From an uncultured bacterium (GTDB lineage Bacteria > Planctomycetota > UBA1135 > GCA-002686595): a stretch of DNA of 64,000 nucleotides. Below the pieces are notes generated by a model that had not been told where the DNA came from, searched no databases, and saw only the letters and a program-made list of their open reading frames with translations. This document shows, in pieces, positions 19,741 through 54,883 of this stretch. Where the stretch lies: contig CALJGV010000014.1 in NCBI GenBank assembly GCA_938075305.1, forward strand, positions 124,001 through 188,000. Reading direction: 5' to 3'. Both the position numbers and the translations under genes were made by a program. Position 1 is the first letter of the stretch. The number at the start of each line of letters is the position of its first letter.

Positions 19741-20700
19741 CTAGCGGTCGCCGATTGAGTCCACGGAGGGGCGCGCGCCACCCGTTCCCCGTCCGTCCCC
19801 GCTCCCTCTACCGCCGCCCTTGGTGTTGTTCTGGCCGCGGCCGCCGGTGGCCGTGATTCCGCTGCCGGGAACGACCTCCTCTTCGCCGCCCGCCTCGGGG
19901 TCCGAGGCGGTGGCGCCCGGTGCCTGAGGGAGCGCGAGGCGCGGGATCTCACCCTCGGCGACCCGCAGGGCCTCGGGGAACCGGACGACCCGGGTGTAGG
20001 TCATCGTGCGTCGGTCCCGGCCGCTGAAGTCCATGGACTCGCGGTCGATCCGCGGCTTGAGCTCGACGGTGAGGGAGAGTCGGATCCAGGCGGGGAGCCC
20101 GATCAGTTCCTCGTCACCCGAGACCTCGCCCCAGCCGTCGTAGGGCTCCGCGTCCGGTCCATCCTCGGTGAAGACCTCGATGTTGAAGCCCTTCACCTGG
20201 TCCGAGAGGAAGATGTACGAGCCGCCCTCGAAGGGCTCTTCATCCACGCCGAAGTCTTCCCTGCGATAGACCTCCAGGAATTCGTCGTTGTCCCGGTTGG
20301 GCCGCATCACGTAGCCGACCTCGTTGATGTCTGCTCGGACACTCTCGGTGCCGTCGCTCAGGTGGACCACGAGGCTGTCGGTGGTGGTCACGAAGTCGAT
20401 TCGGTCCGCGTCCTGGCCGTTGACCGTCCGGTCCGTGATCTGGAGCCAGGTGTTGCGCGGTCGGCTGGTGGTGAAGACCCCGCGGAGATCCTGGATCATC
20501 AGCTCAAGGACGGCGGGGCCGGCGAGCTGCATCTCCTGGAAGTTGTGGATGGTGTCGCGCGTTCGACGCGCGGCCTGCATGAGCTTCGAGATGCTGACGA
20601 ACATCATGCTCATGATGACGATGACCAGTAGCACCTCCACGAGGGTGAAGCCGCGGTCGCCCGCGCTGGTCTTCGGTGTGTGTCGCGTGCTCTGCATCAT
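19741..20700 (-). CDS. gspJ: Type II secretion minor pseudopilin, GspJ-like
   Basis: This is a 319-residue protein with a prepilin N-terminus: a short basic leader, then the cleavage site RG/FTLVEVLLVIVIM with Glu at +5. The leader peptidase would cut after Gly. The position (last of the pseudopilin genes) and the larger size fit the tip subunit GspJ. The C-terminal 80 residues are Gly/Asn/Arg-rich and low-complexity, including a GGRGQNNTKGGGR segment that resembles the GspI tail. The ATG at 20700 overlaps the gspI stop by 4 bases. Confidence 0.75.
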   Translation of the reverse strand: MMQSTRHTPKTSAGDRGFTLVEVLLVIVIMSMMFVSISKLMQAARRTRDTIHNFQEMQLAGPAVLELMIQDLRGVFTTSRPRNTWLQITDRTVNGQDADRIDFVTTTDSLVVHLSDGTESVRADINEVGYVMRPNRDNDEFLEVYRREDFGVDEEPFEGGSYIFLSDQVKGFNIEVFTEDGPDAEPYDGWGEVSGDEELIGLPAWIRLSLTVELKPRIDRESMDFSGRDRRTMTYTRVVRFPEALRVAEGEIPRLALPQAPGATASDPEAGGEEEVVPGSGITATGGRGQNNTKGGGRGSGDGRGTGGARPSVDSIGDR

Positions 20701-46336: not shown

Positions 46337-47923
46337 TCAGGGGCAGAAGAGCACGGACATCGCGTTGCTGAAGTTGAACGTCGGCACGCCCGAGACGTTG
46401 TCGCGGAAGTAGCACTGGAAGTTCAGGGTCATGCCCGGGAGGATGGCGCCGGGGCCCGTCGACTGGTTCGGATCGTTGAAGTCAACGGCCCGCGCGACGC
46501 TGCCAAGGATGCCAGCCTGGACGGCCGGGTAGAGCCGCACGGCGGGCATCTGCGAGTTCCCGACCACGCAGAGGTTGCCCAGCCCGCTGGAGATCTGGGT
46601 CTGCTCGGGGCCGTAGAAGAACAGGCCCACCGTGAAGGGCGGGAGGCCAGAGGCAGCGATCACGAAGTTGTTGGTCGCGATGCTGGCGGAGCCGGTGGCA
46701 GCGATCTGCGCGGCGGCGCCGGAGCTGCCCGGGTTCGAGGAGCAGTAGCTCGTGAAGCCGCAGGCGGGCGGCTCCTCGATGATCTTCCAGATGCGGCCGC
46801 CGCTCTGGGTGACGATGTAGACCTCGCCGTCGTGGTCCTCGCCGAACGAGGAGATCGAGCTGATGAAGCCCGAGGTCGGGCGCAGCTCGATGGTGCGGTC
46901 CGTGAAGTTCTGCACGGAGCTGCCGTCGTACTCGATGCTCCAGATCTTGTTGGAGCAGTAGTCGGCGTAGAAGTAAGTGCCCTGGAGGCTCGGGATCGCG
47001 TTCCCGCGGTAGATCATCCCGCCGGTGATGCTGCAGCCCTGGCCGTGGTTGTACTCCTGGATCGGGTCGAGGAGCGTGGTGCTGGTGCAGCTGCAGCCGG
47101 AAAGACCCGTGCAGCGAGTGCCCTCCTTGCAGCGCCACCCGAGGTTCAGGCCAGCCTGGCCGGCAGGGATGAAGTCGACCTCCTCGCGCTGGTTCTGGCC
47201 TACGTCGGCGATCCACATGTCGCCGGTGGTCCGGTCGAAGGTGAAGCGCCAGGGGTTGCGGAGGCCGAGGTGGTAGATCTCGTTGCGGACGGACCCGTTG
47301 CTGAGGAAGGGGTTGTCCGCCGGGATGAACGGGGCGGCGATGTCCACGTCGTAGCGGAGCATCTTGCCCAGGAGGCTCTGGCCGTTCTGCGCCCGGCCGT
47401 TGGGGTCGTTACCCGAGCCGCCGTCACCGAGGCCGAAGTAGAGCTTGCCGTCCGGACCGAACTTGATGCAGCCACCGTTGTGGTTGGAGAAGTCCTGGTT
47501 CACCTGGGAGATGAACTGGACCCGCGTGGGGTTGGCGATGTTCGGGTTCGAGGACACGGTGTACTCGGCCACCCGGGAGTTGCCGGAGTTGTTCGTGTAG
47601 CTGACGAAGAACCGGCCGTTGTTCGCGTAGTCGGGGTGGAACGCGAGCCCGAGGAGCCCGCGTTCACCGCCCGAGGCGACCTCGGGGTTGATGTTCAGGA
47701 ACGGGGTGGCGAGCAGCGTTCCGTTCTCGACGACGCGCACTCGGCCCGCCTGCTCGATCACGAAGATCCGCGAGGGGTCGCCCGGGGCGAACGTCAGATC
47801 GGTCGGGTTCTGGAGCCCTGAGACGAAGAGCTCGGTGGTTAGCGGGGCCTGAGCGGCGGCCGACCCGGCGGTGAGGAGTCCGAGGCCTGCGACGGCGGTG
47901 GCGAGGAGAGTGCGAAGCATCAT
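46337..47923 (-). CDS. Secreted PQQ-dependent glucose/sorbosone dehydrogenase with C-terminal sorting-like domain
   Basis: This is a 528-residue exported protein. A signal peptide ends TAGSAAAQA. Residues about 30-375 form the six-bladed soluble aldose dehydrogenase propeller: SGLQNPTDLTFAPGD, GGERGLLGLAFHPDY, NHNGGCIKFGPDGKLYFGLGDGG (split: NHNGG, then FGPDGKLYFGLGDGG), GLRNPWRFTFD and GWRCKEG. Residues 388-528 are a separate domain starting FTSYCSSNPGSSGAAA and ending with LNFQCYFRD and MSVLFCP. The same domain ends the protein encoded at 52224-53264. It probably oxidises a sugar or polysaccharide end at the cell surface. A terminator hairpin lies downstream. Confidence 0.85.
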   Translation of the reverse strand: MMLRTLLATAVAGLGLLTAGSAAAQAPLTTELFVSGLQNPTDLTFAPGDPSRIFVIEQAGRVRVVENGTLLATPFLNINPEVASGGERGLLGLAFHPDYANNGRFFVSYTNNSGNSRVAEYTVSSNPNIANPTRVQFISQVNQDFSNHNGGCIKFGPDGKLYFGLGDGGSGNDPNGRAQNGQSLLGKMLRYDVDIAAPFIPADNPFLSNGSVRNEIYHLGLRNPWRFTFDRTTGDMWIADVGQNQREEVDFIPAGQAGLNLGWRCKEGTRCTGLSGCSCTSTTLLDPIQEYNHGQGCSITGGMIYRGNAIPSLQGTYFYADYCSNKIWSIEYDGSSVQNFTDRTIELRPTSGFISSISSFGEDHDGEVYIVTQSGGRIWKIIEEPPACGFTSYCSSNPGSSGAAAQIAATGSASIATNNFVIAASGLPPFTVGLFFYGPEQTQISSGLGNLCVVGNSQMPAVRLYPAVQAGILGSVARAVDFNDPNQSTGPGAILPGMTLNFQCYFRDNVSGVPTFNFSNAMSVLFCP

Positions 47924-48197: not shown

Positions 48198-49694
48198 ATG
48201 ACGTTCCGCTCGCCCTCCTGGCTGCCCCCCCTTGCGCTCCTCGGCCTCGCCACCGCCTGTGGTGGGGACCGGGCTCCTGAGCCACGCCACGTGCTGCTGA
48301 TCACCCTGGACACCACCCGGGCCGATCACCTGGGGGCCTACGGCGAGACACGTTTCGAGACACCCGCCCTGGACGCCCTCGCCTCGGAGGGGGTCGTCTT
48401 CGAGCGCTGCAGCTCCGCCGCTGCGACCACCCTGAGCTCGCACACCTCGCTCATGACGGGGGCTTATCCGCTGCGACACGGTGTCGTGCGCAACGGGTTC
48501 TCGGTGGACCGCTCGAACCGGATGCTCGCCGAGACCCTCTCCGAGGCGGGCTTCCAATGCTCGGCCTTCGTGGCCTCCTCGGCCCTCACCTCCGCGACCG
48601 GGATGGACCAGGGGTTCGAGTCCTACGACGAGCGCCTCGACCTCCCAGCGTCGCCGGGCGGCAATGACCAGGCCCAGCGCGTGGCCGGATCCGTGACCAG
48701 CGCGATCCTGGACCACCTCGATGGAGCGGTCACCCCGGGCGTAGGTGGGCGGCGGTTCATCTTTGCCCACTACTTCGACCCCCACGCGCCCTATGGCGCA
48801 CCGGGCGCCGAGCCCGCCGCGGGCTTCGGCGAGATCGAGGCGGCGGTCTCCGCCCAGCAGCAGCGGCTCCTGGGTCGAGCGCCGGGCCAGCAGGGGGTGA
48901 TCGCGGCGGGCCTCCCCGTGGAGCTCGCGGGCCCGGTCGACGCCTCCCCGAGCCCGCGGGATCAAAGGCTCGCCGACCTCTATGGGCGGGAGGTGCAGTA
49001 TCTCGACGCGGAGATCGGCCGGCTCCTCGCGGGCCTCGCGGCCAGGGGGCTCCTCCAGGAGACCCTGGTGGTGGTCACCGCCGACCACGGCGAGACCTTC
49101 TGGGAGCAAGGCAACTTCTGGAACCACGGCCTCTGGGTCGGGGAGCCCGACGTGCGCGTCCCCTTGATCGTCCGCGGTCCCGGGGCCGACAGGGGCCTGC
49201 GGGTCGCGACGCCGGTGTCGGGTGTGGATGTGGCACCCACGATCCTGGACGCCATCGGTCTGGCCCCGGGTCCTGGCGACGACCCGGGCCGAGGGCGCAG
49301 CCTGGCGGGAGCCCTACGGGGCGAGCCGCTCCCCTTGCGCGCCGTCTTCTCGGAGGCGACCCAGCCGGGCCCGCTCCTCGAGCAGGCCCCCGACCTCGCG
49401 TGGGCGGGGGATGCCAAGCCCCAGGCCGTGAGGCTCGGGGACTGGAAGCTCGTCAAGGCCCCGTACCTGGGGGTGCGCCAGCTCTTTGACCTCGGGAGCG
49501 ACCCCGGGGAGCGCCGGGACCTCCTGGCGGAGCCGTCCCTGGATCCAGCGGCCCGTGCGGCCCTCGAGGACCTCGAGCGCGCCCACGCGGTGTGGCGCGG
49601 GGCGGCGGACCCCCGGCCGTCGAGGTTCGACCCTGCCCAGGCCGAGGCCCTGCGGGGGCTGGGCTACGGCGGCTTCGAGGACGAGGATGACTGA
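48198..49694 (+). CDS. Sulfatase/alkaline-phosphatase-superfamily lipoprotein
   Basis: This is a 498-residue predicted lipoprotein with lipobox LATAC near residues 16-20. The core has LLITLDTTRADHLGAYG, then the active-site segment TTLSSHTSLMTGAYPLRHG, and HYFDPHAPYG and VTADHGETFWEQG for the metal ligands. In formylglycine sulfatases the nucleophile is Cys/Ser in C/S-x-P-x-R; here the corresponding residues read TLSSH, so a Thr probably acts as nucleophile, as in phosphoester-type relatives. The C-terminus LGYGGFEDEDD is typical of this subgroup. Substrate (sulfate ester or phosphate ester) is unclear. The 274-base gap upstream shows no gene or clear promoter. Confidence 0.85.
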   Translation: MTFRSPSWLPPLALLGLATACGGDRAPEPRHVLLITLDTTRADHLGAYGETRFETPALDALASEGVVFERCSSAAATTLSSHTSLMTGAYPLRHGVVRNGFSVDRSNRMLAETLSEAGFQCSAFVASSALTSATGMDQGFESYDERLDLPASPGGNDQAQRVAGSVTSAILDHLDGAVTPGVGGRRFIFAHYFDPHAPYGAPGAEPAAGFGEIEAAVSAQQQRLLGRAPGQQGVIAAGLPVELAGPVDASPSPRDQRLADLYGREVQYLDAEIGRLLAGLAARGLLQETLVVVTADHGETFWEQGNFWNHGLWVGEPDVRVPLIVRGPGADRGLRVATPVSGVDVAPTILDAIGLAPGPGDDPGRGRSLAGALRGEPLPLRAVFSEATQPGPLLEQAPDLAWAGDAKPQAVRLGDWKLVKAPYLGVRQLFDLGSDPGERRDLLAEPSLDPAARAALEDLERAHAVWRGAADPRPSRFDPAQAEALRGLGYGGFEDEDD

Positions 49695-49732: not shown

Positions 49733-50722
49733 TCACTCGAAGCTGCCGTGGTGCCGGTAGAAGAAGCGGTGGAGCACCCTGCCGTCGCGCACCAGCTCCC
49801 CGTCGACGAAGTACAGGGGCAGGCGCTGGTCGCCGGCCTCGGTGCGCTCGGCGTTCATGGCCAAGCGGATCCGATCGTTCTCCTCGACCGCGAAGGGGCG
49901 GACGGGGAAGAACGACTGTCGCCAGTGGGTGGGCGGCACCATGGGCGAGCACGAGAGTTCGACCTCGGGGGTGAGGTCCACCTCGAACCAGCCGCCGAAG
50001 CCGTGGACCGTCCCTGCGCGTTCCACGAGCAGCGTCGCCGCCGTGGTGAAGAAAAAGTCGTCGGCGCACGCGTGGTCGAGGTCCAGGTCGAGCACGTCGA
50101 CGGGCGTCCCCAGGAGCGAGGCCGGCTTGAGGTCGCAGGCGGCGGTGATGAAGCTCTGCACCTCGGCCTCGATCAGCCTGGAGTAGTCGAGCCCGTACAC
50201 CGGGCGCTCCCACAGGCCGAGGCCCAGGTCCTGGTGCACGTGGCTGTCGTCCACCGGGGCCACGCACAGCCGAAGCGTGCGCGGGAGCATGTGCCCGCCT
50301 GGCTTCATGTAGCGGTCCCGCGCGTCGATGACCGACTCGAACATCAGCTCCGCGAGGCCGAAGAAGCCCATCCACTCGGAGATGATGAGGTCGTAGTTCC
50401 CCTCCAGGTCGAGGTCCTCCATCCGCCCGCGGTGGAACGTGATCCGGTCGCCGAGGCCATTGTCGGCGGCCACGTCCCGGGCCACGTCGATGATGGCGGA
50501 GGAGTCGACCGCGTCCACGTGGGCGGCCCCTGCACGGGCGGCGAACATCGAGAGGATCCCCGTGCCGGTCCCCACGTCGAGGACCCGTTTGCCCCTCGCC
50601 ACGGACTCGATCGCCCGGCGATAACCATCGGTCCGGGCGTGGTCCTGGATCATGAGCCGGTGGACTCCGGGATCCGCGTAGCTCGCGAAATAGTCGTGAT
50701 CGCTCGAGTAGCCGTCAGCCAT
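49733..50722 (-). CDS. Protein arginine methyltransferase (PRMT)-like protein
   Basis: This 329-residue protein has the complete PRMT layout familiar from eukaryotes. DYFASYADPGVHRLMIQD (residues 10-27) matches the N-terminal YFxxY segment. Motif I is RVLDVGTGTGILSMFAARAG (46-65). The double-E loop is SEWMGFFGLAELMFE, with Glu116 and Glu125 nine apart as in PRMT1. The THW loop is PPTHWRQSFF (264-273). A C-terminal beta-barrel follows the Rossmann domain. It should methylate arginine side chains using SAM, though the substrates are unknown. It is convergent with the sulfatase-family gene and diverges from an HTH-coiled-coil gene. Other SAM methyltransferases lack the THW and double-E features. 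Confidence 0.85.
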   Translation of the reverse strand: MADGYSSDHDYFASYADPGVHRLMIQDHARTDGYRRAIESVARGKRVLDVGTGTGILSMFAARAGAAHVDAVDSSAIIDVARDVAADNGLGDRITFHRGRMEDLDLEGNYDLIISEWMGFFGLAELMFESVIDARDRYMKPGGHMLPRTLRLCVAPVDDSHVHQDLGLGLWERPVYGLDYSRLIEAEVQSFITAACDLKPASLLGTPVDVLDLDLDHACADDFFFTTAATLLVERAGTVHGFGGWFEVDLTPEVELSCSPMVPPTHWRQSFFPVRPFAVEENDRIRLAMNAERTEAGDQRLPLYFVDGELVRDGRVLHRFFYRHHGSFE

Positions 50723-50875
50723 GGGCGGGAGGTTGCCAGAGGGTTCGGTCCGCGGGGTTCAGAAATCGGCCATTGGCAAGAAAAGAGCATTGGCCGGGTG
50801 GACGGCGTGAATGGGGCCCGCGGGTTGGGCGAGTGAGGGTTGAGATCGCCCCTCGCGGGTTCCTATCGTCGGGTC

Positions 50876-52219
50876 ATGGCGAGGGACACCACCCATGCTG
50901 CTCCGGCGGCGGGCGCGGCTGCGGCCGACGCCCTCGACCCCGGCGCCCTCTTCACGCTGGAGGAGGCCGCCGGCCGGGTGCGTGTTCCGGTGGAGGACCT
51001 CGAGGCCCGGTGTGACCGTGGGGAGCTGCTCTACGAGACCCGGCGCCGTGGAAGGAAAGAGGTCCGCTGCGTCCGAGGCCTGGACCTCGCAGAGGCCTTT
51101 CCCGGCGCCCCTGGCGTCGCGCCGCGGACCCCGCGACCGAATCCGCCACAGCCGACCGCGGAGGCCCCCGCCTCCGAGGGCGCCGACGCTCCTTCGAGCG
51201 CCGACCAGGTCTCCGTCTCGGCTTCGCGCGGGCACCAGGGGGACGGCATCGCCGAGGCCGTCCGCAGCTCAGGTACGAGCCGGGACGCCCTCATCGGCCT
51301 CTGCCAGGACTTGGAGACCCGCCTCGACCTCGCAGAGCGCGAGCGTCAGGCGAGCACCGCGTCGTTGCTCATGGCCCAGCGGAGGGTGCTCGAGCTCGAG
51401 CTGCAGGAGCGCTCGAGGCCCTGGCGTCGGGCCTCGGCGGCGGCGCTCGGGCTGATGTCGGTGTCGGCGCTGACGGTCACGGCCATGCTCCCGGGCCGGC
51501 TTGAGGAGCGTGCAGCGGACCGTGAGGTGGCCCTGCGGGCCCAACTCGACGGGGATCTGGGGCGCCTGCAAGCCTCCATGGGCGCGATGGTCACTGCCTC
51601 CGGGGAGGAGCGGGCGGCGCTCGCGGCGCGCCTCGAGGCCAGCTCGGCTGCCCTGGACGACGAGCGGCGACGGGTGGAGCGGCTGATGGCCGAGGCCGCG
51701 GATGAACGCTCGAGGGCCGAGGCCGCGCGGCTCGCGGGACTCGAGCAGCTCGGCGCGCTCGAGGAGCGGCTCGTGGAGTCGGATCGACAGGCGGTTCGCC
51801 GTAGCGCGGAGCTCGGAGTCATCGTGGAGGCCAGCGCCCGGGACCGGGTTCGCTTCGACGAGCGAATCGCGGCGGCGGAGCGCTCCGCCGCGGCGGCGCG
51901 CGCCGCGCTCAGCGAAGCCCAGGAGAGCGCAGCCCAGGAACGGGCGGGGTTCCAGGGGGAGCTCGCGGCGGTGGAGAACCAACGCGCAGCGGAGCTCGCT
52001 GCGCGCACAGCCGAGATCGAGAGCCTGCGCGGTGAGGTTCGTTCACTGATGAGCGAGCTGCAGATCGGGCAGGCCGAGGCCGTCGCCGTCCTCGAGGCCG
52101 CGGGCGAGGAGCTGAAGGCGCAGCTCGAGGCCCGCCAGCCCGTCGAGGTATGGACCCTCAAGAGAGAAACGCGCGAGTCCTGGTGGACCCGCGCGCTCCG
52201 CTCGATGACCGCTCGCTGA
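50876..52219 (+). CDS. N-terminal helix-turn-helix, membrane segment and long coiled coil protein
   Basis: This is a 447-residue protein. Residues about 20-75 (LFTLEEAAGRVRVPVEDLEARCDRG, cut here for length: FTLEEAAGRVRVPVEDLEA then RGELLYETRR) look like a MerR/excisionase-type helix-turn-helix. After a Pro/Ala-rich stretch and a first coiled coil, a hydrophobic segment lies near 198-220 (SAAALGLMSVSALTVTAML). The remaining 220 residues are an Ala/Arg/Glu coiled coil, presumably outside the membrane if the N-terminus is inside. A paralogue with the same N-terminus starts at 53393. I know no named family. The ATG at 50876 is used since the frame upstream has no domain. Confidence 0.65.
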   Translation: MARDTTHAAPAAGAAAADALDPGALFTLEEAAGRVRVPVEDLEARCDRGELLYETRRRGRKEVRCVRGLDLAEAFPGAPGVAPRTPRPNPPQPTAEAPASEGADAPSSADQVSVSASRGHQGDGIAEAVRSSGTSRDALIGLCQDLETRLDLAERERQASTASLLMAQRRVLELELQERSRPWRRASAAALGLMSVSALTVTAMLPGRLEERAADREVALRAQLDGDLGRLQASMGAMVTASGEERAALAARLEASSAALDDERRRVERLMAEAADERSRAEAARLAGLEQLGALEERLVESDRQAVRRSAELGVIVEASARDRVRFDERIAAAERSAAAARAALSEAQESAAQERAGFQGELAAVENQRAAELAARTAEIESLRGEVRSLMSELQIGQAEAVAVLEAAGEELKAQLEARQPVEVWTLKRETRESWWTRALRSMTAR

Positions 52220-52223
52220 CCCC

Positions 52224-53264
52224 TCAGGGGAGGAACGTCACCGAGACCCCATCGGTGGTGTTGGAGGTCGCGGTCCCGCCGCTGGCGTCACGGAACCAGT
52301 ACTGGAAGTTCCATGTCTCGCCCGCGTTGATGGTCGCGGCGGGGGGCAGGCCGTTGAAGGGCACGGGGAAGTTGACCTGGCCCGTGAAGCCCGAGCTCTG
52401 GATGAAGTTGGAGAGGCGGAAGATGCCACCGCTCAGGCAGAGGTTGCCCTGCCCGCCCCCCAGGCCCGTGGCGAAGCCCTGGGACTCGGAGAAGATGAAG
52501 TATCCGAGGGACAGGGTTGGGAGGTTCGCGGCGTCGAGGGTGAGCGAGCTGGCGAACAGGCTCTGGGACCCGGAGGCCTGGATGACGCCGGCGGCGCCGC
52601 TCGAGTTCGGGACCGAGGAGCAGTAACTGGTCGGGGCCGGGGCGGTGTAATCTGCCGCCAGGGTGCCCTGTACGTTCAGGTTGGCCGTGGTCCCGCTGCT
52701 GGGGTCGGAGAGCTGGAAGGCCAGCTGCAGCGGGGCATCGAGGGAGAGGGTTGAGCCGTTCAGGGCGATCAGCCCACCCATGGGCTGGGGGGTGCTCGTC
52801 GTCCCCGTGAGGTCGACCACGGACGGCGAGCCGCCGAGGGCGGTGATGGTCGACGTGCCACTGATGGTGGTCGAGAAGATGTTCACGTTGAACGAGCCGC
52901 TGCTCACGTTGCCCACGTCGGACTGCAGCTCCAGCTGCAGGTTGCTGATGACGATCGTCGCCAGGGGCGGGAGGAACGGCACGGGGTTGGGGATCTCCGC
53001 CGTCAGGTCTGGCGTCACGAGCACGGTGGCGCCGGGAACGAACTGGATCGATTGGATCGGGAGCCCGCCGGTGGTGGTCACGATGTTGGTCGACCCGACG
53101 AGGGCGAAGTTCGGCGGCGTCCCGACGATGGCCCCGAGGGACGTGGAGCCCGAGAAGGTGAACTGGGACGCGCTCTGGTCCACGGCGTAGTTGAGCGGCG
53201 CCTGGGCCGCTGCGGTGGAGGCGAGGAGCACCGGGAGGGCGCCGAGGAGGGGATGGAATCGCAT
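52224..53264 (-). CDS. Secreted protein with the shared C-terminal domain, unknown function
   Basis: This is a 346-residue exported protein, signal peptide MRFHPLLGALPVLLASTAAAQ. Residues about 25-205 are a beta-rich, Gly/Ser/Thr-rich domain of unknown function (starting LNYAVDQSASQFTFSG). Residues 212-346 (TSYCSSVPNSSGAAGV to TWNFQYWFRD and VSVTFLP) match the C-terminal domain of the sorbosone-type dehydrogenase at 46.3 kb. The role is probably surface display or sorting. It converges on the HTH-coiled-coil gene, 4 bases away, and diverges from the second HTH-membrane gene. The start at 53264 is fixed by the signal peptide. Confidence 0.75.
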   Translation of the reverse strand: MRFHPLLGALPVLLASTAAAQAPLNYAVDQSASQFTFSGSTSLGAIVGTPPNFALVGSTNIVTTTGGLPIQSIQFVPGATVLVTPDLTAEIPNPVPFLPPLATIVISNLQLELQSDVGNVSSGSFNVNIFSTTISGTSTITALGGSPSVVDLTGTTSTPQPMGGLIALNGSTLSLDAPLQLAFQLSDPSSGTTANLNVQGTLAADYTAPAPTSYCSSVPNSSGAAGVIQASGSQSLFASSLTLDAANLPTLSLGYFIFSESQGFATGLGGGQGNLCLSGGIFRLSNFIQSSGFTGQVNFPVPFNGLPPAATINAGETWNFQYWFRDASGGTATSNTTDGVSVTFLP

Positions 53265-53392
53265 GGGAGCTCTGGATGGGGGATGCGCGTGCCCTTGAAT
53301 CCTGCCTTGCCCGGGCGTGATGCGCCACGTCACCTGCTGGCGGGATGTCCCAGGGCTGGCGGTGGGAAGCCCGAGCGTGTACACAACGTGCC

Positions 53393-54883
53393 ATGGCTCA
53401 GGAAGAGACAAGCGCCGCGGGAGGGGAGGCTGGGGGTGCCCCCCGGCAGCCGGCGGGCACGCCCGCCCCGTGGGACCCTGAGCAGTGGTGGTCCTTCGGC
53501 GAGGCGGCGGATCGAGCGGGCGTGACCCATCGGACCCTGCAGGGCTGGGCCGAGCGGGGCGAGCTCATGGTCCGCATGGCCTGGCGAGAGGGGACCGAGT
53601 TCCGGTTGGTGCGCGCGGGGGACGTGGCGCGGCTCGCGCCAGGGGCGTTGAGCCCTGGGGACCCTTCGGCGCCGCTCGAGGAGCGGGCCCTGTACACCGG
53701 ACCGAGGCGATCCGCCCTTGGAGCCGGGGCGCCTGTGGCCCCCCGCGAGCCCCGGGGGGAGGCGCCGGACCGGTACGAGGACGACCGCGATGCATTCCGA
53801 CGGGCGGCGGAGATGGAGATCGAACGACTGCGTGGCGAGCTCGACCTGCTCCGGAGTCGCGGGGTGACGCCGGTGACGGCGGCGTCGCCAGCCGCCATGG
53901 ACCTGTGGTCCATCGAGGAGACCCGCCGGCCGGCGTTACTCGGCGCGGGTCGTCGGTGGCGCCTGGGCGGCGTCGCGGTCTTCATCTGCGGGCTGGCCCT
54001 CGGCGTCCTCGCCGGGGGGCTGCTCAAGTCCTCGGGAGGGGAGCCTCCCGGAGCGGAGGCCTCCGTCATGCAGGCGCCCGTCGGCGTAGGAGTGACGAAG
54101 GAATCGTCGGAGGTGGCCTCGCTCGGTGTGCTGGGCGGAGGCATGGATCGTGCCCCGAGCTTCGAGGGCATGGCGCCGGAGCCTGCGACCGAAGATCTGG
54201 GGCCAGGCTCGGGACAGCCAGGGGCCCGGACGGCCTCGGGCCCAGAGGAGGAGGGTGGGCCCGTTGCGGCCCCGGCGGGACCCGTGGCGTCGGCTCGCGT
54301 TCCCCTGGGGCTCGCTGCGATCGGCGGCGTGCCCAGCAAGTCGCTCGATGGCCGCTCGACCTGCGAGTACGGGAACGGCGAGCTGGCGACGCCTTCGGCG
54401 CGGTTGAGCCTCGGCGGCTGCTGGGGAGAGCTCGCCGCGGACGGCGCGGCGGTCCTGGCCACCGACCGAGTTCAGGGCGTTAGCTGCTGCAAGCACCACG
54501 CCGCCGTCCAGCGCCTCAAGGGCGTCGCGTCCTCCCCGCGAGCCCTCGCCGTGGCGCGGGAGGAGGCGACGCAGGCGACTCACGACGGCCTCGTTCCTCC
54601 CATGCTGGAGCTTCGGGCGGAGCGTACGGCCGCCCTGCTGGCCCGTGCGCTGACGGAGGGCTGGAGGGCCTCGGGTTTCGATGGGCCCATCGAGGGCCGC
54701 GCCCACCGCTGGTCGTTCGGCGAGGCGGAGGACGCCCCCTCGGACGGGGTCGGCGCCCGCCTGGAGCTCGAGAGCTGGGTGGAGCGCGGCGAGGACGGCG
54801 CCTACGCCAGCTACCGGATGGTGCTCGAGCTGGGTGAGAGCGCAGCGGGGGACCGCGCCATTGCGTTCCAGTGGCTTGAGTGA
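53393..54883 (+). CDS. N-terminal helix-turn-helix, membrane-anchored protein (paralogue of the 50876 gene)
   Basis: This is a 496-residue protein whose N-terminus (WSFGEAADRAGVTHRTLQGW, then AERGELMVRMAWREG) resembles that of the protein encoded at 50876, again like a MerR/excisionase helix-turn-helix. A hydrophobic segment lies near 188-212 (GGVAVFICGLALGVLAGGLL). Between them is a Glu/Arg-rich helix. The exported C-terminal half is Gly/Pro-rich and then forms a domain with Cys344 in STCEYGNGELATPSARLSLGG-type sequence (split: STCEYGNGEL) and SCCKHHAAV. I recognise no family. ATG at 53393 chosen for the HTH. The next gene's TTG start overlaps its stop by 8 bases. Confidence 0.65.
   Translation: MAQEETSAAGGEAGGAPRQPAGTPAPWDPEQWWSFGEAADRAGVTHRTLQGWAERGELMVRMAWREGTEFRLVRAGDVARLAPGALSPGDPSAPLEERALYTGPRRSALGAGAPVAPREPRGEAPDRYEDDRDAFRRAAEMEIERLRGELDLLRSRGVTPVTAASPAAMDLWSIEETRRPALLGAGRRWRLGGVAVFICGLALGVLAGGLLKSSGGEPPGAEASVMQAPVGVGVTKESSEVASLGVLGGGMDRAPSFEGMAPEPATEDLGPGSGQPGARTASGPEEEGGPVAAPAGPVASARVPLGLAAIGGVPSKSLDGRSTCEYGNGELATPSARLSLGGCWGELAADGAAVLATDRVQGVSCCKHHAAVQRLKGVASSPRALAVAREEATQATHDGLVPPMLELRAERTAALLARALTEGWRASGFDGPIEGRAHRWSFGEAEDAPSDGVGARLELESWVERGEDGAYASYRMVLELGESAAGDRAIAFQWLE

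Follow-up and report, generated by a model that had tools for sequence, protein, structure and literature searches.

A probable PRMT1-type protein arginine methyltransferase of an old bacterial lineage in a planctomycete

Locus and neighbouring genes

The window discussed here is the whole stretch of DNA that was analysed, 64,000 nucleotides from an uncultured planctomycete. It carries a gene of the protein arginine methyltransferase (PRMT) family, of which the genome has one copy, and the features of the locus are collected in Table 1. The open reading frame agrees exactly with that reported in the earlier note, where its strand was left unstated. An open reading frame on the opposite, plus strand that overlaps the gene (49748-50836) was considered and found to be without support.

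Table 1. Features of the PRMT gene and of its immediate surroundings, in window coordinates
Feature	Position	Strand	Remarks
Convergent downstream neighbour, sulfatase-family protein	48198..49694	plus	Sulfatase E=4.6e-39; not co-transcribed with the PRMT gene
PRMT gene	49733..50722	minus	329 aa, ATG start, apparently a single-gene unit
C-terminal beta-barrel/oligomerisation subdomain (Pfam PRMT_C)	49841..50269	minus	residues 152-294, E=3.1e-19
THW loop T265-H266-W267	49922..49930	minus	H266 = PRMT1 H293; invariant in 14/14
Approximate stretch that aligns with the PRMT dimerisation arm	50108..50212	minus	residues 171-205; phmmer alignment to Hmt1/PRMT3 continuous
Double-E loop SEWMGFFGLAELM	50342..50380	minus	residues 115-127; both Glu and Met in 14/14
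Motif I VLDVGTGTG, SAM-binding motif	50558..50584	minus	residues 47-55
M24, D27, R30	50633..50653	minus	= PRMT1 M48, D51, R54; invariant in 14/14
YFxxY motif Y11-F-A-S-Y15	50678..50692	minus	= PRMT1 Y35, Y39; both Tyr in 14/14
Intergenic region, PRMT to divergent HTH/coiled-coil gene	50723..50839		between the two genes
Divergent upstream neighbour, predicted HTH and coiled-coil membrane protein	50840..52219	plus	BLAST cluster c6; without Pfam match

The intergenic region upstream of the gene probably holds its promoter; a sigma-70-like site was not found there on the minus strand. The divergent neighbour is kept beside the PRMT gene in most members of the genus and also in two other genera (L065 and L066). 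Its product and that of another plus-strand gene at 53345-54883 are alike in build, with an N-terminus resembling MerR and, behind it, a transmembrane or coiled-coil region. Within the genus, no conserved operon partner of the PRMT gene was found. In other genera, a membrane protein of an unrecognised family is encoded directly after the PRMT (L065, L069, L071 and L072), at three of these loci (L065, L071 and L072) in the order PRMT, membrane protein, M18 aminopeptidase, and at L066 the aminopeptidase follows the PRMT directly. The neighbouring genes at the loci examined point to no substrate. Two genes on the minus strand of the window, at 46337-47923 and 52224-53411, encode secreted proteins, one a glucose/sorbosone dehydrogenase and the other lacking a Pfam match, which have in common a C-terminal domain of about 130 residues that starts YCSS...SSGAA and belongs to a BLAST cluster present in 13 of 21 loci.

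Family membership and active-site residues

By sequence, the window protein belongs to the PRMT family, with matches far stronger than chance would give. Its match to the Pfam PRMT_C model (PF22528) scores 70 bits against a cut-off of 27, and general class I methyltransferase domains are also matched. Among the sequences of solved structures, yeast Hmt1 is the best hit (3.5e-49 and 4.4e-49), followed by human PRMT6 (1e-45) and human PRMT3 (2e-45), with PRMT8, PRMT2, PRMT1 (1e-41), a plant PRMT and CARM1 further down. The alignment to Hmt1 and to PRMT1, 3 and 6 is unbroken over residues 10-274 of the window protein, a 271-residue comparison with Hmt1 shows 38.7% identity, and the top BLAST identity between eukaryotic PRMTs and the window's genus is 35-40%. 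None of the NCBIfam models listed for the protein is above its own cut-off. An identity as PrmA, the ribosomal protein L11 methyltransferase, was rejected on the basis of scores far below threshold (30.8 bits vs 183 for TIGR00406 and 47.6 vs 269 for NF001790); PrmA has the class I SAM-binding domain in common with the window protein but lacks PRMT_C, the THW loop and the double-E loop. The earlier note would have withdrawn its reading had the protein fallen into a non-PRMT methyltransferase family; this was tested and turned out not to be the case.

For the active site, PRMT1 positions were mapped onto the window protein by alignment, and conservation was counted in the 14-member clade of family f1. 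The presence of the residues is measured, while their roles are those established for PRMT1, among them product specificity for M48, pairing with the THW histidine for D51 and binding of the SAM carboxylate for R54. Residues Y11, F12, Y15, H21, M24, D27, R30 and T31 correspond to PRMT1 Y35, F36, Y39, H45, M48, D51, R54 and T55; D49, G51, G53, G55, D73 and E102 to D76, G78, G80, G82, E100 and E129; E116, W117, M118, G119, E125 and M127 to E144, W145, M146, G147, E153 and M155; and T265, H266 and W267 to T292, H293 and W294. The stretch around motif I reads V47LDVGTGTGILSMFAARAG65, and the two glutamates of the double-E loop are nine residues apart. The hallmarks that the earlier note had listed in order, i.e. 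Y11FASY15, the V47-G65 stretch, E116 with E125, and T265-H266-W267, are all present where it had placed them. Conserved in the window protein and in the 14 clade members alike are the equivalents of PRMT1 Y35, Y39, H45, M48, D51, R54, E129, E144, M146, E153, M155 and T292-H293-W294.

Of all the PRMT1 active-site residues tested, only two are replaced in the window protein. The first change, E100 to D, is shared with Hmt1, human PRMT3 and Naegleria PRMT1. The second concerns Y152, which is A124 in the window protein and either A or T in 14 of 14 clade members, compared with Y, F, H, N or R in eukaryotes. According to the alignment, this A/T is a signature of the clade beside the substrate cleft, and the pocket and the specificity may therefore differ. 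With Hmt1 and PRMT1 (PDB 1g6q, 9vkf and 8z2z) the window protein has the two-part architecture and the catalytic residues in common; apart from the two substitutions, it differs from them in its bacterial host, in a divergent stretch of 40 residues at the C-terminus, and in its position on the tree, where it branches off outside every type I PRMT sampled from eukaryotes. An AlphaFold model made from 8 near-identical rows had a pLDDT of 46.8, too poor for use; the arm region aligns by sequence.

The features of the PRMT superfamily found in the protein are accordingly motif I of the form VLDxGxGxG, a double-E loop of the form SExMG(x5)E, the THW loop and PRMT_C. Those of type I are M24 and M127 at the positions of PRMT1 M48 and M155, the YFxxY tyrosines Y11 and Y15, and the grouping with eukaryotic type I enzymes. 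PRMT5 (type II) and PRMT7 (type III) belong to the same superfamily and have the double-E loop as well, but are distant on the tree.

Distribution and phylogeny

PRMTs are usually treated as a signature family of eukaryotes, and the earlier note had called them rare in bacteria. This holds in part. In a bacterial sampling that covered two phyla and one plasmid, PRMT_C proteins, most of them divergent, occur in 30 of 392 Planctomycetota genomes taken across the whole phylum (12 of these 30 in the clade of the window protein), in 1 of 249 Bacillota genomes and in none of 14 control genomes. Closer to the window, each of the 9 genomes in the genus has the gene, and in the taxonomic family as a whole it is present in 27 of 81 (E<=1e-20). 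Two family members have a second, divergent copy (G398:C99:24648-25493 and G681:C88:3209-4072). Searches with the PRMT gave zero matches in phages and zero in viral contigs, and the plasmid search gave a single distant match, in Tistrella.

Public genomes hold seven close orthologues, which are 79-98% identical to the window protein over the full length, with dN/dS values of 0.02-0.15, and the gene is under purifying selection. One orthologue, with matching synteny, comes from isolate Poly30, named 'Saltatorellus ferox' (PMC10896814), whose complete chromosome is CP036434. Since the gene is found in every genome of the genus, the complete one of Poly30 included, and has such low dN/dS, it is neither contamination nor a stray transfer; the shared synteny likewise speaks against assembly contamination, which was rejected.

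The tree combines 37 planctomycete sequences and a single sequence each from Bacillota and Tistrella with nine type I PRMTs of eukaryotes, the eukaryotic sampling being restricted to sequences that come from PDB chains or were checked against them. All nine eukaryotic enzymes group in one clade (100/100), and the window protein falls within a 19-member planctomycete clade (98/97) that is sister to the eukaryotic type I clade, with a joint support of 99/96, and the other bacterial PRMT_C proteins lie outside. When PRMT5 and PRMT7 are added, the topology is unchanged, the joint clade has a support of 100/97, and the planctomycetes are again sister to the type I enzymes and not nested among them. 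PRMT7 then groups with the Tistrella protein (95/88) and with L040 (98/95), away from type I. A constraint that keeps every eukaryotic PRMT in one group is disfavoured (AU p=0.017), a weak point in view of the long branches.

The bacterial PRMT_C proteins outside the joint clade, from Planctomycetota and Bacillota (L012, L019, L025, L028, L033, L037, L062 and others), mostly have the double-E and THW loops. Several are without a catalytic glutamate: in the planctomycete proteins L019, L033, L037 and L038 one or both are missing at the aligned positions, and these proteins are possibly pseudoenzymes or have an altered chemistry. The bacterial proteins that group with eukaryotic PRMT7 are L040 and L063 4001-4447, the latter from the Tistrella mobilis plasmid pTM2, where it carries the annotation 50S ribosomal protein L11 methyltransferase.

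Two origins had been put forward in the earlier note, horizontal transfer or an old planctomycete family. In favour of the planctomycete having recently acquired a eukaryotic PRMT is the fact that the closest solved relatives of the window protein are eukaryotic. However, the type I PRMTs of eukaryotes form a group of their own that leaves out the planctomycete clade, and placing this clade beside PRMT1/3, PRMT6 or PRMT10 is rejected by AU tests (p=1e-4, 4e-4 and 1.5e-5, respectively), which together rule out a recent transfer from eukaryotes among the lineages sampled; the gene is moreover spread across many genera. This scenario is already largely refuted, it could be revived only by an unsampled eukaryotic lineage branching beside the clade, and we give it very little credence. 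The second proposal, which agrees with the distribution in the genus and family, fared better, and the tree supports the planctomycete clade as an old bacterial lineage sister to the eukaryotic type I PRMTs. A topology in which the eukaryotic type I enzymes branch inside the bacterial clade is not rejected (AU p=0.18), and on this unrooted and narrowly sampled tree the old connection between bacteria and eukaryotes may have run in either direction.

Proposed function, substrates and significance

Taken together, the data argue with good confidence for a catalytically intact PRMT1-type protein arginine methyltransferase whose clade is anciently bacterial, stands next to the type I enzymes of eukaryotes and was not recently acquired from them. 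Its likely function is the SAM-dependent mono- and asymmetric dimethylation of arginine, the substrate most probably being a single cytosolic protein or a small number of them. In the proposed mechanism, the VLDVGTGTG motif, together with R30 and D73, would bind SAM, E116 and E125 would clamp and activate the guanidinium group of the substrate arginine, and H266 would be paired with D27. The protein would form a ring dimer through the dimerisation arm, and M24 and M127 would lead to a type I product, i.e. first monomethylarginine and then asymmetric dimethylarginine.

Another option considered is that the protein is PRMT-like and has no arginine methyltransferase activity, being either a pseudoenzyme or an enzyme with another acceptor, such as L11. 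The glutamate losses in other bacterial groups and the annotation of the Tistrella relative fit this idea, but in the window clade both glutamates, the THW loop and the cofactor residues are kept under purifying selection, and the PrmA models match the SAM domain alone in the window protein. We regard this option as highly improbable.

Bacterial natural-product pathways contain arginine methyltransferases that act on small molecules, and the same PRMT fold could in principle act on free arginine, a guanidino metabolite or a small peptide instead of on proteins. The change of Y152 to A or T alters the substrate side of the pocket, and no GAR-type substrate covaries with the gene, both of which favour such an activity. 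Against it, no biosynthetic cluster is seen around the gene, and all the protein-type PRMT residues, together with the THW loop and the arm region, are retained. We consider a small-molecule substrate unlikely, though less so than a loss of activity.

Regarding protein substrates, RRM genes are present in 40 of 41 relatives, and RGG-tailed RRM proteins occur in the genus (example ERQPRGGGGGGGRGGGGGGGNW, from L093). The RRM proteins of PRMT-bearing genus members have 0-2 RGG, and relatives free of the PRMT often have more. Since such relatives have equal or more RGG repeats, these proteins were rejected as a covarying substrate. Long RGG/YGG-rich RRM tails (L114, L103, L130 and others) are common in the planctomycete order, with the PRMT present or absent. 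The earlier note had pointed instead to the Gly/Arg-rich tail of a pseudopilin, encoded near 20652 on the minus strand. This tail has 3 RG in the window genome and 0 RG in the PRMT-bearing Poly30 (G396) and in two other genus members (G392 and G395), and the suggestion could not be upheld. No covarying RGG substrate was thus found among the RRM proteins and the pseudopilin in the relatives compared.

Arginine methylation of bacterial proteins, as implied by the earlier note, is a reasonable inference from the sequence. Where such methylation has been reported in bacteria, it is ascribed to enzymes unrelated to PRMTs, such as CheR, reported to act on R112 of PhoP in Salmonella (PMC8546571). A full-text literature search returned no account of a bacterial PRMT; subscription papers are mostly outside its coverage, so novelty is unproven. 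The enzyme family itself is known; what is unusual is its host. The Saltatorellus clade, a group with a cultured member to which the planctomycete of the window belongs, is noted for its shape-shifting and for an actin-like protein (PMC11481906, PMC11032199). One can speculate, tentatively, that the type I PRMTs of eukaryotes trace back to a bacterial enzyme of this family akin to the planctomycete clade and that PRMT7 has separate bacterial kin, so that the diversification of arginine methylation systems would have taken place in bacteria, before eukaryotes, and such systems would still be operating in the shape-shifting Saltatorellus group. With an apparently intact type-I-like PRMT in a genus that has a cultured isolate, Poly30, protein methylation by a true PRMT in a bacterium becomes directly testable, and so does a bacterial origin of the eukaryotic type I enzymes.
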